Shown here: in pieces, positions 3,926 through 58,272 of the stretch
Numbering within the stretch: the stretch's first letter is position 1
How the letters are laid out: each line of letters starts with the position of its first letter
DNA from: Candidatus Omnitrophota bacterium
GTDB lineage: Bacteria > Omnitrophota > Gorgyraeia > B26-G9
NCBI GenBank assembly: GCA_018813905.1
Contig: JAHJAO010000030.1
Coordinates: 1-58,359, forward strand
Direction of reading: 5' to 3'
Length of the DNA: 58,359 nucleotides
Position numbers and translations under genes: made by a program
The notes under the pieces: model-generated
Databases searched by the model: none
What the model saw: the letters and a program-made list of their open reading frames with translations, nothing else
What the model was told of the DNA's origin: nothing

Positions 3926-5503
3926 ATGAAAAAGATTTACCTGTACGATACCACGTTGCGTGACGGTGCCCAAACGGAAGGAATTTCTTATTCGGTAAAC
4001 GATAAGATTTTGATCGCGAAAAAACTTGACGAACTCGGTATGGATTTTATCGAAGGAGGCTGGCCGGGTTCCAATCCCAAGGATCTGGAATTTTTCAAAA
4101 AAATTAAAAGTGTTAAATTCAAAAACTCTAAAATCGTAGCTTTCGGCAGCACGCGGCGTAAAAATAAGCGCGCCAGTTCCGACCCGATTTTAAAAGCGTT
4201 GGTGGAATCAAAAGTTAAACATGTTACGATTTTTGGAAAAAGCTGGGATCTGCATGTACGGGATGTTTTAAAGGTTGCGTTGAAAGATAACTTGGAGATG
4301 ATCACCGATACGATCAGATTCCTGCGCTCTAAAAACATTACCGTTTTTTTTGATGCCGAGCATTTTTTTGACGGTTACAAGCATAATCCGGAATATGCGT
4401 TGGATACAATTATTGCGGCGCAAGAAGCCGGTGCGCAAAGTATTATTTTATGCGATACCAACGGCGGTACGCTTACTTCACAAATAATCAAAATCATCGG
4501 CGAGGTAACCCCGCATATCCGGAAAAATCTGGGTATTCATGTCCATAATGACGCGGGTATGGCGGTAGCAAATACGATTGCCGCGGTAGAAGCCGGCTGC
4601 ACGCATGTGCAGGGGACAATAAACGGATATGGTGAACGCTGTGGCAATGCCGATCTTTGTGCCGTAATTGCCTGCCTTAAGCTAAAATTAAACATTAATT
4701 GCATTAGTGACCGTAATTTGCGGGAACTTACAGAAGTCTCACGTTATGTCAGCGAAGTCAGCAATATGAAGCATCTGGATAATCAGCCCTTTGTCGGCAA
4801 TTCCGCCTTTGCCCATAAAGCCGGGGTGCATATCAATGCCATGCTTAAAAATACGTTTACCTACGAGCATATTAAACCTGACCGGGTCGGCAATAAACGC
4901 AGATTTTTAGCCAGTGAGTTGTCGGGTAAAACTTCAATTTTATTCAAGGCCAAAGAGCTATCTTTTGATTTAAACAAAGATGACCGGCACACAAAAAACT
5001 TGCATAAGCTTATCCAGCGGCTTGAATATGAAGGCTATCAGTTTGAGGCCGCGCAAGCTTCTTTTGAGCTGCTTATTAAAAAGGCGCTTAAAAAGTATAA
5101 GAAGTTTTTTGAACTTGATGGATTCCGGGTGATTGTGGAAAAAAGACAGGATGATACGCTTATTTCTGAGGCCACGGTAAAAATCAAAGTAAACAATATA
5201 TCTGAGCATACAGCGGCAGAAGGCGACGGGCCGGTTAATGCCCTGGATAGCGCTTTAAGAAAAGCCCTGCAGGATTTTTATCCGACTTTGGGCAAAATGC
5301 ATCTTTCTGATTTTAAAGTCAGAGTATTAGATAGCAAGGCGGGGACAGCGGCTAAAGTAAGGGTCTTTATTGAATCGCAGGATGAAAAGAGCTCCTGGTG
5401 GACCGTAGGAGTTTCCGAGAATATAATTGAAGCCAGCTGGCAGGCTTTAGTCGATAGCATCGAATATAAGTTGCTCAAAGAAAAAGAGGCGGATAAAAAT
5501 TAA
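3926..5503 (+). CDS. cimA: Citramalate synthase (LeuA/HMGL family, CimA type)
   Basis: YDTTLRDGAQTEGISYSVNDK, HVHNDAGMAVAN, C-terminal LeuA regulatory domain; CimA subtype judged from the N-terminal motif. Confidence 0.85.
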   Translation: MKKIYLYDTTLRDGAQTEGISYSVNDKILIAKKLDELGMDFIEGGWPGSNPKDLEFFKKIKSVKFKNSKIVAFGSTRRKNKRASSDPILKALVESKVKHVTIFGKSWDLHVRDVLKVALKDNLEMITDTIRFLRSKNITVFFDAEHFFDGYKHNPEYALDTIIAAQEAGAQSIILCDTNGGTLTSQIIKIIGEVTPHIRKNLGIHVHNDAGMAVANTIAAVEAGCTHVQGTINGYGERCGNADLCAVIACLKLKLNINCISDRNLRELTEVSRYVSEVSNMKHLDNQPFVGNSAFAHKAGVHINAMLKNTFTYEHIKPDRVGNKRRFLASELSGKTSILFKAKELSFDLNKDDRHTKNLHKLIQRLEYEGYQFEAAQASFELLIKKALKKYKKFFELDGFRVIVEKRQDDTLISEATVKIKVNNISEHTAAEGDGPVNALDSALRKALQDFYPTLGKMHLSDFKVRVLDSKAGTAAKVRVFIESQDEKSSWWTVGVSENIIEASWQALVDSIEYKLLKEKEADKN

Positions 5504-5566
5504 ACTCAAGTTTAGAAGTTGAACACGGTTCGCGGATTTTTTGATTTCCTGCCGAGCGCCATTCTT

Positions 5567-8239
5567 ATGGAAAATTTAACTACAAAATATAATTTTGAAG
5601 AAATCGAGGCCAAATATTATAATCTTTGGCTAAAGCAGGGCTATTTTCATGCGACAAAAGATACGGATAAGAAGCCGTTTGTCATAGTTATCCCCCCGCC
5701 GAATATTACCGGTATCCTGCATATGGGGCATGCCTTAAATAATACGATCCAGGATATTCTAATCCGTTATAAAAAAATGAGTGGATTCGAATCCCTCTGG
5801 ATGCCGGGAACAGATCACGCGGGTATTGCTACCCAGAATGTCGTAGAACGTAAAATCACCGGCGACGGTCTTTCGCGCCACGTTTTAGGACGGGAAAAAT
5901 TTCTAGAAAAAGTATGGCAATGGAGGCAAGAATACGGCTCGACCATAATTCGCCAATTAAAGCGCCTGGGATGCGCTTGTGACTGGTCGCGGGAACGTTT
6001 TACGCTGGATGCTGGTTACAGCAATGCGGTGTTGGATGTTTTTGTGAATTTATATAAAAAAGGGCTGATTTACCAGGGCAATTACATTATTAACTGGTGT
6101 CCTCGTTGCCAAACCGCACTTTCGAACGAGGAGGCACCGCATAAAGATATGGATGGGTTCCTCTATTATATCCGGTACCCCTTAAAGGATTCAAATGAGC
6201 ATATTGTCGTGGCGACTACGCGACCGGAAACGATGTTGGGCGATACGGCCGTCGCTGTAAATCCAAAAGACAAACGTTACAAAAAAATTATCGGCAAAAC
6301 GGTAATTTTGCCTTTAATGAACCGGCAGATTTTGATAATCAAGGATGATTTTGTTGACCCCCGTTTCGGTACCGGGGCCGTGAAAGTAACCCCGGCGCAC
6401 GATCCCAATGATTATGCGTTGGGAAAAAGGCATGGCTTGGAATTTGTGAACATTATGCATCCGGATGCCACCCTTAACGAAAATGCGCTTGATTATGCCG
6501 GACAGGATCGTTTTAAAGCCCGCGCGGCGATAATTGAGGATTTAAAAGAACGGGGTCTGCTTTTGAAAGTAGAGGCGCATAAATATGCCGTTGGTCATTG
6601 TTACCGGTGCCATACGATTATTGAACCCTATCTTTCCCGGCAGTGGTTTGTGAAGATGAAACCGCTGTCTTTGGCGGCAAAAAAAGTCGTAAAAGATGGT
6701 AAAGTTAAATTTTATCCGTCGCGCTGGACAAAAGTCTATTTGAACTGGATGGAAAATATCCAGGATTGGTGTATATCCAGGCAAATTTGGTGGGGGCATC
6801 GTCTGCCTGTGTATTATTGTAAAAATTGTTATAAGCCGGACAATACAGAAGAAGACGTGCGGCAAAGCGGGGTTATCGTTGCCAAGACCAGACCCGCGCG
6901 GTGTCCGGATTGCGGGAAGGCGGATATTGTGCAAGACGAAGATGTGCTGGATACCTGGTTTTCCTCATGGCTGTGGCCGTTTGCTACTTTTGGCTGGCCG
7001 GATAAAAAGGTAAGCGAGGAAGACTTGAAATATTTCTATCCCACTTCGGTTTTAGTTACGGCTCAGGAAATTATTTTTTTCTGGGTAGCGCGGATGATTA
7101 TGGCGGGATTGGAATTTATGCAGGATATTCCGTTTAAAGATGTTTATATCCATGGAACAGTGCGGGATAAAACCGGTAAAAAGATGTCTAAATCCTTAGG
7201 AAATATTATTGATCCCCTGGATATCATTAAGGAATACGGGACCGATGCCTTGCGGTTTAGTCTAATCAGCATTACCGCTATGGGGCAGGATGTGTATCTG
7301 GCTAAAGACAAATTTGAACTGGGCCGGAATTTTTCCAACAAGATCTGGAACGCCGCCCGTTTTATCCTGATGAATTTGGACACAAAACAGACAGAAGGGG
7401 ATCTGTGTATATTTTATAAACAAACAAAGCTTTCTTTGGCGGATGCCTGGGTTTTGAGCCGGTTTTACTCGACTTTAAAAGCGTTAAATCAAGCCCTTAA
7501 TAACTACCGGTTTAACGAGGCGGCGGGTTTGTTGTATGAATTTTTCTGGCATGAATTTTGTGATTGGTATATTGAATTGGCGAAACTAAACATTAAAGAG
7601 CGCAATACCCAGTTTGTGCTGTATAAAATATTGGAAAAGACATTGCGCGCTTTACATCCGTTTATGCCGTTTATTACAGAGGAGATCTGGCAAAAGTTAA
7701 ATCCAGAAGCCGGCTCGATTATGCAAAAGACCTGGCCGCATGTTCAGGAAAACTTAATCGACCGGGTGCTTGAGAAAAAAATGACTATGCTTAAAGAAGT
7801 TATCATAACCATTCGAAATTTGCGCAGCAAAAATAATATCAAGCCAAAAGACATGGTTGAGGTGAGTATTTTAGCCGAAGACAAAAAGAAAAGAGGTATT
7901 TTAAAAGACACCCAAAGTTATATCGAAAAGCTTGCTCGTGTTTCTAAAATAGCTTTTTTGGAGGTGCCGGTTTCTTTTGACGGTGTCTCGTGCGATGTCG
8001 CCAGCGGCTGTTCGATATACCTGCATATAAACTTTGATGCCGCGGCGGAAAATGAGAGAATAGAGCATGAAATCAATCAGATCACCTCAAATATCAAAAG
8101 AAAAGAAGAGCTGCTTAAAAATAGCGCTTTTATTGCCAAAGCACCTGTGCCTGTTGTCGAGAAAGAGAATAAAGCATTGGCCGAATTGAAAGCGGATTTA
8201 AAAAAACTTGAGGCGATTAAATATGCGGTTAAAAAATAA
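5567..8239 (+). CDS. valS: Valyl-tRNA synthetase (start reset to ATG at 5567)
   Basis: PPPNITGILHMGHALNNTIQD and GKKMSKSLGNIIDP; 5567 is in frame with the ORF-track start at 5519. Confidence 0.96.
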   Translation: MENLTTKYNFEEIEAKYYNLWLKQGYFHATKDTDKKPFVIVIPPPNITGILHMGHALNNTIQDILIRYKKMSGFESLWMPGTDHAGIATQNVVERKITGDGLSRHVLGREKFLEKVWQWRQEYGSTIIRQLKRLGCACDWSRERFTLDAGYSNAVLDVFVNLYKKGLIYQGNYIINWCPRCQTALSNEEAPHKDMDGFLYYIRYPLKDSNEHIVVATTRPETMLGDTAVAVNPKDKRYKKIIGKTVILPLMNRQILIIKDDFVDPRFGTGAVKVTPAHDPNDYALGKRHGLEFVNIMHPDATLNENALDYAGQDRFKARAAIIEDLKERGLLLKVEAHKYAVGHCYRCHTIIEPYLSRQWFVKMKPLSLAAKKVVKDGKVKFYPSRWTKVYLNWMENIQDWCISRQIWWGHRLPVYYCKNCYKPDNTEEDVRQSGVIVAKTRPARCPDCGKADIVQDEDVLDTWFSSWLWPFATFGWPDKKVSEEDLKYFYPTSVLVTAQEIIFFWVARMIMAGLEFMQDIPFKDVYIHGTVRDKTGKKMSKSLGNIIDPLDIIKEYGTDALRFSLISITAMGQDVYLAKDKFELGRNFSNKIWNAARFILMNLDTKQTEGDLCIFYKQTKLSLADAWVLSRFYSTLKALNQALNNYRFNEAAGLLYEFFWHEFCDWYIELAKLNIKERNTQFVLYKILEKTLRALHPFMPFITEEIWQKLNPEAGSIMQKTWPHVQENLIDRVLEKKMTMLKEVIITIRNLRSKNNIKPKDMVEVSILAEDKKKRGILKDTQSYIEKLARVSKIAFLEVPVSFDGVSCDVASGCSIYLHINFDAAAENERIEHEINQITSNIKRKEELLKNSAFIAKAPVPVVEKENKALAELKADLKKLEAIKYAVKK

Positions 8240-40196: not shown

Positions 40197-40496
40197 ATGC
40201 TGGATAAGTTAAAAAACATGTTTGAAGCGCAAAAGAAAATAGGCGAAATAAAAAAAGAACTTGAAAAAGTTACTATTGATTTTTCTAGCCCCGATGAAAA
40301 GATAAAACTGAAGATGACGGGCACGCAAAAAATCATCGCGCTGGAAATAACGCAGGATTTGCTTAGCGTAGAGAAGAAGAAAACTTTAGAAGAGAATCTG
40401 GTTAGCTCTTTTAACGCGGCTTTAGATAAAGTGCAACTTGCCGTATCCGATAAGCTGCGGTTAAAGGTGGGCGATTTAAAAATCCCCGGATTTTAG
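40197..40496 (+). CDS. YbaB/EbfC family nucleoid-associated protein
   Basis: Small protein with MLDKLKNMFEAQKKIGEIKKELEKV...VGDLKIPGF; size and pattern of YbaB. Confidence 0.8.
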   Translation: MLDKLKNMFEAQKKIGEIKKELEKVTIDFSSPDEKIKLKMTGTQKIIALEITQDLLSVEKKKTLEENLVSSFNAALDKVQLAVSDKLRLKVGDLKIPGF

Positions 40497-40636: not shown

Positions 40637-41584
40637 TCAGCCGGCCAGGTCAATATCCTGAAATTCTGCGGCACAGATTTTATCCCGGCCGCCGTGTTTA
40701 GCCTTGTAGAGTTGCTTATCCAAGGCTTGGACAATAATGTCAAAGCTTAGTTCAGCATTGTCTGGGAAGCTTACTACGCCTAAACTAAGCGTAACTTCAA
40801 GCGGCGGGTTAATTTCTTCAAAATTGTAAGACTTGACTTTGTTTTTTAAACGTTCCGCTAAAACCTGCGCGCTTTCAAGATTGGTGTGGGGGGAAATAAT
40901 AACGATTTCATCTCCTCCGTAACGGCAGAGGATATCGATATTCCTGATGCCGTCTTTAATCAGGTTCGCCAGTTTTTTTAAAACAATATCGCCCTGAGAA
41001 TGACCGCACCGGTCATTGATATTTTTGAAATAGTCAATATCGACCATGATCATGGAAAGCGGATAGTGATACCTTTTTATCCGGGCGATTTCTTCGTCAA
41101 TTCTTTTTATTAAATAGCGCCGGTTATATATCTGCATCAGTTCGTCGGTCATGGAGATTTTGGCCAGCAGATTATTTTTGGCCTCCAATTCCTGTTCCAG
41201 TGCCTGGTGTTGCAGGAAAACGTTTGAATATGCGGCTAATTCGTCAAAGCTTATCGGGGCGGTGAAGTATCCATCTACAAGCGCGGCGTTAAACAACTTG
41301 ATTTTTTCTTTCGGGTCGGAACTTTCAAAATTCAGTATAATAATCGGCACGGTTTCGGTGTTAGTTAACGCCCGCAGGGCGATTCACAATTCCTGGATAT
41401 CGTTTAAGTCGGGCAGTTTGCTGTTAAGAAAAATCAGGCCGACGGAATACTTGGATGCATTATCCATTAACTCTTTAGCGGTGGAGACGGTTGAAAAATT
41501 GAATGTGTTGGTATCGAAAAAACTTTCCAGAGAGTGCAAAAAGTCCTGTTTTAATCCGACACAGACTAAAGTTTTTTTACGCAT
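40637..41584 (-). pseudogene. Receiver-like domain + GGDEF diguanylate cyclase interrupted by one in-frame TGA (41384-41386)
   Basis: ORFs 41384..41584(-) and 40637..41350(-) share a frame; conceptual readthrough gives a continuous REC-like domain; C-terminal RNIDILCRYGGDEI (I-site + GGDEF signature). Confidence 0.8.
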
Positions 41585-41786
41585 TTTTCTCCCTTAAATT
41601 ATTGTACTATAAGTTTTAAAAATATGCAAAACTAAAAGATAATAAATATTGGGGCATTGACGATGCGCGGAGAATTTTGATACAATATTCTACACTGGCA
41701 AATTTGATTATAACTTATTCAAAATAAAGATGTTGCTTGAAAACCACCTAATTTTTAGTTTGTGGATATTAAATTAAATACCGGTT

Positions 41787-42062
41787 ATGGCGATAAAACA
41801 GGCGAATATTTTTTATACGGGACGCGTGCAGGGGGTGGGATTCCGATATACCGTCCAGCGCATTTGCGCTAAATATGCTCTTGGCGGATGGACGAGGAAT
41901 CTTCCGGATAAACGGGTGGAGGTTTTGGTCCAGGGCCCGGAAGAAGATATCCAGGCTTTTGTCGCGGAATTGGATGAGGCAATGTCCGGTTATATCCGGG
42001 GTAAGCAGCTTTATTGGCAGAAAAAAAAAGAAGAATTTCGAGATTTTCAAATCCGATTTTAA
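41787..42062 (+). CDS. acyP: Acylphosphatase
   Basis: FYTGRVQGVGFRYTVQRIC, GGWTRNLPDKRVEVLVQGPEE. Confidence 0.95.
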   Translation: MAIKQANIFYTGRVQGVGFRYTVQRICAKYALGGWTRNLPDKRVEVLVQGPEEDIQAFVAELDEAMSGYIRGKQLYWQKKKEEFRDFQIRF

Positions 42063-58040: not shown

Positions 58041-58128
58041 TATTATGCAGATTAGAAAAACTTTTATTCTGCTTAAACTAAGTAGTTTTGATATCCGAAA
58101 ATCCGCGAAAGCGGGCATACCAAGAAAA

Positions 58129-58210
58129 GGTATGGGCAAACCCTGAGCGATCAGGGGGCGCAAAGCTACGGGTCTTGAAGCAAAAGCTAAGATCGCCGGG
58201 CGCACCGACA
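58129..58210 (+). promoter_or_regulatory. Cyclic-di-GMP-I (GEMM-I) riboswitch aptamer
   Basis: GGGCAAACC-CTGA-GCGA-TCAG-GGGGCGCAAAGCTACGGGTCTT...AAGATCGCCGGGCGCACCGA matches the GEMM-I core (GGCAAACC / GNRA hairpin / GACGCAAAGCCACGGGYCT / GCCGGG). Confidence 0.88.
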
Positions 58211-58234
58211 ACTAACTTTTAGCAAGCTAAAGAC

Positions 58235-58272
58235 AGCCGAGCTGCCGAAGATGCAGGTCGGCTTTATTTTTT
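58235..58272 (+). terminator. Rho-independent terminator, likely riboswitch expression platform
   Basis: AGCCGA-G-CTGC-CGAAGAT-GCAG-G-TCGGCT followed by TTATTTTTT. Confidence 0.88.

Follow-up and report, generated by a model that had tools for sequence, protein, structure and literature searches.

Why does a well-conserved diguanylate cyclase gene of a Candidatus Omnitrophota bacterium carry a TGA in the middle of its reading frame? The gene lies in a contig of 58,359 nucleotides that we analyzed at full length (hereafter the window). Two open reading frames, 41384-41584(-) and 40637-41350(-), follow each other in one frame, and an initial annotation made from the sequence alone had noted that a single TGA separates them. 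This codon, at 41384-41386, is indeed the sole internal stop. We found no second stop or frameshift, and no other disabling change, anywhere in the 315-codon frame. The gene and its surroundings contain the following features.

40637..41584, minus strand: the complete receiver-GGDEF frame of 315 codons, interrupted once by TGA and closed by a terminal TGA, matching four uninterrupted orthologues over its full length
41384..41386, minus strand: codon 67, the in-frame TGA, which falls within helix alpha3 in the receiver model; orthologue codons TGC, TGC, TCG and GCC
41387..41584, minus strand: the first 66 codons, which cover the N-terminal part of the degenerate receiver and are the expected product if translation stops at the TGA
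40637..41383, minus strand: 248 codons and stop, covering the remaining receiver sequence, the linker helix and the GGDEF domain (Pfam GGDEF, 147.6 bits)
41423..41425, minus strand: AAC (Asn54) at the phosphoacceptor position, where every orthologue has Asn or Ser
40904..40918, minus strand: GGDEI signature, residues 223-227
40934..40945, minus strand: RNID, the RxxD motif of the I-site, residues 214-217, five residues before GGDEI
41348..41350, minus strand: GTG given as start codon for the second ORF; it codes for an internal Val when aligned with the orthologues and lacks a Shine-Dalgarno sequence
41369..41381, minus strand: hairpin CGCCC-TGC-GGGCG, its loop 7 nt past the TGA; not conserved, no function inferred
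41589..41595, minus strand: Shine-Dalgarno sequence AAGGGAG of the true ATG start
40197..40496, plus strand: ybaB/ebfC, convergent neighbor, kept in relatives
41787..42062, plus strand: acylphosphatase gene, divergent neighbor, kept in relatives

Comparison with relatives identifies the two ORFs, at the level of sequence, as one receiver-GGDEF gene whose stop is private to the source genome, because full-length orthologues are uninterrupted, gene order is shared and the carriers form one clade. The gene is present in 5 of 12 genomes of the family, the source genome included, and these five members group together with support 100/98. The other four orthologues (G002, G007, G008 and G010) have no interruption and are 48-54% identical to the read-through protein over its whole length, which agrees with the initial view that both sides of the TGA belong to one protein. 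That annotation had proposed aligning the orthologues at the TGA codon, and had held that relatives lacking the upstream receiver half would speak against a single gene. All four match over the full length, and all four have a sense codon at the site (Cys, Cys, Ser and Ala), leaving the source genome as the only one of the five carriers with TGA at codon 67. In three of the four (G002, G007 and G008) the cyclase gene is flanked by the same convergent ybaB and divergent acylphosphatase genes. In G010 the contig ends just beyond the cyclase gene, with the acylphosphatase gene located some 5 kb upstream.

These comparisons also bear on the idea that two genes lie here, one for a short receiver-like protein and another for a cyclase begun at the internal GTG. 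Both ORFs do exist, and the GTG is only 33 nt past the stop, where weak reinitiation is possible. However, every orthologue is one continuous protein, the GTG aligns with an internal Val and has no Shine-Dalgarno sequence before it, and the second product would miss the first half of the receiver. We regard two genes as highly improbable.

Is the unusual receiver itself a sign of decay? Pfam analysis of the read-through protein returned the GGDEF domain at 147 bits and the receiver at 26 bits, under the family cut-off of 30; in the orthologues, no receiver domain was listed at E 0.001. The receiver had been described as atypical, with Asn for the phosphoacceptor Asp and without the N-terminal acidic pair. 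That description holds and extends to all five members, each of which lacks the acidic pair and has Asn or Ser in place of the Asp. A canonical REC-GGDEF paralogue in the source genome (G000 contig C33) retains both the phosphoacceptor Asp and the acidic pair. Because the altered residues recur in every orthologue, the degenerate receiver is an old, conserved property of the family, unrelated to the break, and not as decay.

To date the break, we compared three-taxon branch lengths, dividing the source-genome branch by the mean of the other branches. The ratio was 1.2-1.6 times for the cyclase and 1.05-2.5 times for seven neighboring genes. The receiver half (1.3-1.5 times) and the GGDEF half (1.0-1.8 times) both fell within the range of the neighbors. 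The relaxed constraint expected of a long-established nonsense pseudogene was not seen, the branch being accelerated in neither half. Since both halves evolve no faster than intact neighboring genes, the stop is either very recent or absent from the organism as a consensus error. A long-dead gene is disfavored because branch rates are ordinary, the frame shows no further stop or frameshift, and neither the catalytic nor the I-site residues have been lost; the I-site and catalytic signature, RNID-(5 aa)-GGDEI, are both present as first described.

We then asked whether the cyclase stop stands alone in the assembly. The assembly measures 2.15 Mb, of which we screened about 1.53 Mb (some 30 kb of this, in small contigs, consisted of N) for in-frame stops flanked on either side by coding signal. 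Candidates were then checked for a Pfam domain spanning the stop. Many coding-potential candidates proved false, being neighboring genes that share one frame, and were sorted out by their Pfam spans; a self-tblastn search for internal stops gave mostly antisense-shadow noise. Four further genes with an internal stop were confirmed in the roughly 1.5 Mb, two with TGA and two with TAA. TGA candidates were examined more leniently than TAA candidates, and we claim no excess of TGA.

L204:6469-7563 (G000 contig C101, 26,469-27,563), minus strand: carA, in-frame TGA at the catalytic Cys codon (FGI*LGHQ; contig positions 26,814-26,816, residue 250 of the frame)
L283:7401-7871, plus strand: 23S rRNA intervening-sequence protein, TGA within the Pfam domain, Arg in the PDB relative
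L249:15697-18963, plus strand: RND transporter, TAA within the Pfam domain, Glu in the PDB relative
L296:13026-15005, minus strand: Wzc-like kinase, TAA within the Pfam domain, aligned with Glu

Separately, a Radical SAM gene at G000 contig C111:7473-7952 (plus strand), one of 88 matches, has an internal TGA.

Together with the cyclase, the four confirmed genes amount to at least three internal stops per Mb, a density within reach of assembly miscalls. In assemblies, internal stops are known to track base miscalls and coverage (PMC11017572). The cyclase resembles the internal-stop pseudogenes and assembly miscalls of that work in that one in-frame stop, private to the genome, interrupts a gene that is otherwise constrained, with more such stops in the same assembly. 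The further stops fit assembly miscalls or recent nonsense mutations. The carA TGA aligns with the catalytic Cys of E. coli CarA, a residue that is Cys in nine relatives, and a housekeeping gene broken at a catalytic residue is most easily explained as a consensus error. By the same token, an error becomes more plausible for the cyclase gene.

The carA TGA is also what UGA-to-Cys decoding would look like. Sporadic decoding of this kind would yield full-length cyclase and CarA while UGA remained a stop elsewhere, with an ordinary tRNA-Cys (anticodon GCA), for example, as a near-cognate decoder. In its favor are the Cys codons at the TGA site in two of the four cyclase orthologues and the second TGA at the carA catalytic Cys, where all nine relatives compared have Cys. 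In both genes the TGA falls at a position that is Cys in some or all relatives, which counts against a mutation or miscall, since Cys decoding explains the pattern too. Under single-base change 13-17% of TGA nonsense codons come from Cys, so two of three TGAs would fall at Cys by chance with a probability of 0.04-0.07. The third internal TGA aligns with Arg, two of the internal stops are TAA, and the cyclase site tolerates Ser and Ala. TGA sites of this kind number only two, compared with about 4,300 Cys sense codons in long ORFs.

The decoding apparatus argues in the same direction. TGA ends 171 of 654 long ORFs (26%), in line with the earlier observation that it is a normal stop here and that code reassignment is not supported. 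RF2 is present, and prfB (L197, G000 contig C131, about 5,089-6,123) still has AGGGGGTATCTTTGAC, the canonical +1 frameshift site, including the in-frame TGA. No tRNA with a UCA anticodon was found in the assembly, which is 92% complete; six low-scoring tca matches from a relaxed ARAGORN run were treated as noise, none of them being among the 44 Rfam tRNA matches. General reassignment of UGA was rejected on these grounds (intact RF2 frameshift site, no opal tRNA, TGA a common stop), and the frequent termination at TGA, the intact frameshift site and the missing UCA tRNA likewise weigh against sporadic decoding as Cys, which we judge very unlikely.

Selenocysteine insertion at the TGA, which the initial annotation had ranked last among its candidates, draws on the same two relatives with Cys at this position. 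In the 92% complete assembly, neither selA nor selC was found (the one tRNA-Sec match is a tRNA-Leu by ARAGORN), all selB matches were below cut-off, the best being of EF-Tu length, and selD was below cut-off. The selA and selB searches do work in this family, because relative G007 gives both. There, selA is followed by selB (contig C198:1232-3696; L112, L128), and selenocysteine use is patchy in the family. A bSECIS apical loop must lie 16-37 nt after the UGA (PMC13188914), whereas the hairpin loop here starts at 7 nt, and no bSECIS-like hairpin fits within 16-37 nt. With no selA, selB or selC found, and with a hairpin that is too near the TGA, not conserved and of ordinary stability, we reject selenocysteine; its chance is practically negligible.

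Could the hairpin instead promote programmed readthrough, yielding some full-length cyclase alongside mostly the 66-residue receiver fragment? UGA is in general the leakiest stop codon, and the downstream half of the gene is still under constraint. The hairpin proposed in the initial annotation does exist and, as an isolated 20-nt piece, is moderately stable (z -2.1), but its role as a signal did not stand up. Starting from the TGA, a stretch of 47 nt folds no more stably than shuffled versions of it (z 0.17), 304 of 901 windows of 47 nt within the gene fold equally well, and the hairpin is not conserved in the four orthologues compared. The suggested AATCG/CGATT outer pairing is unused in the predicted fold. 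We therefore rejected the hairpin as a signal on its z of 0.17 and lack of conservation. With both stop and hairpin missing from all four orthologues, the readthrough option raised at the outset is left unsupported, and we consider it quite unlikely.

Taken together, the evidence makes it very probable that one nonsense codon, private to this genome and arising from a miscall, a strain mixture or a very recent mutation, interrupts the gene of a conserved diguanylate cyclase whose receiver is degenerate. Mutation or miscall is favored over special decoding because the relatives' gene is intact and no selenocysteine machinery was found. A recent nonsense mutation and an assembly error were both among the first candidates, and the private stop and intact orthologues keep them in the lead. 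The TGA at codon 67 may stem from a base miscall or strain mixture in the metagenome assembly, to which we give close to an even chance; that it is a very recent real nonsense allele has, in our estimate, a chance somewhat short of even. If the TGA is real, translation would stop after 66 residues and the cyclase would be lost apart from basal readthrough, while the eleven other GGDEF matches of the source genome would stay in place. As it stands the stop is an ordinary feature, one more internal stop in a metagenome-assembled genome, and matters little. The carA TGA in the same assembly makes the question of error versus recoding tractable with reads.

Elsewhere in the window, close to where the contig ends, a c-di-GMP-I-GGC riboswitch aptamer occurs at 58126-58250 (plus strand; 61.3 bits, cut-off 59). 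The gene it targets would be located past that end.

Besides the carA TGA, a second by-product worth keeping is the family itself, a conserved group of GGDEF proteins whose receiver lacks its phosphorylation site. The modelled structure (pLDDT 78, pTM 0.50) has its best full-length matches in WspR (3bre), DgcR (6zxb) and PleD (1w25). Because the model matches these proteins and the phosphorylation residues are missing, the family is assigned a predicted REC-GGDEF architecture with a pseudo-receiver, and cyclase activity is predicted. Like WspR, DgcR and PleD, it combines a receiver, a long linker helix and a GGDEF domain with GG(D/E)EI and an RxxD I-site; unlike them, the orthologues have Asn or Ser for the phosphoacceptor Asp and have lost the acidic pair, and the source-genome copy has an internal TGA. 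Strongly conserved motifs, NTETVP and KEKIxLFxAxxxDGYF, mark this GGDEF family with its degenerate receiver (window 40637-41584; L010, L011, L012 and L013).

A precedent for such a receiver is REC1 of ShkA, a pseudo-receiver that keeps the receiver fold without the phosphorylation residues and is thought to bind ligands (PMC7010744). In ShkA, c-di-GMP acts on the pseudo-receiver (PMC7010744), and in DgcR the linker changes its coiled-coil register when the receiver is modified (PMC8041772). The pseudo-receiver of ShkA belongs to a hybrid histidine kinase, whereas the one described here precedes a GGDEF domain and any ligand it binds is putative. By analogy, and because the receiver has no phosphorylation site, a ligand or partner bound to the receiver of the intact family may act through the long linker helix to change the position of the GGDEF dimer; product inhibition would come from the I-site.
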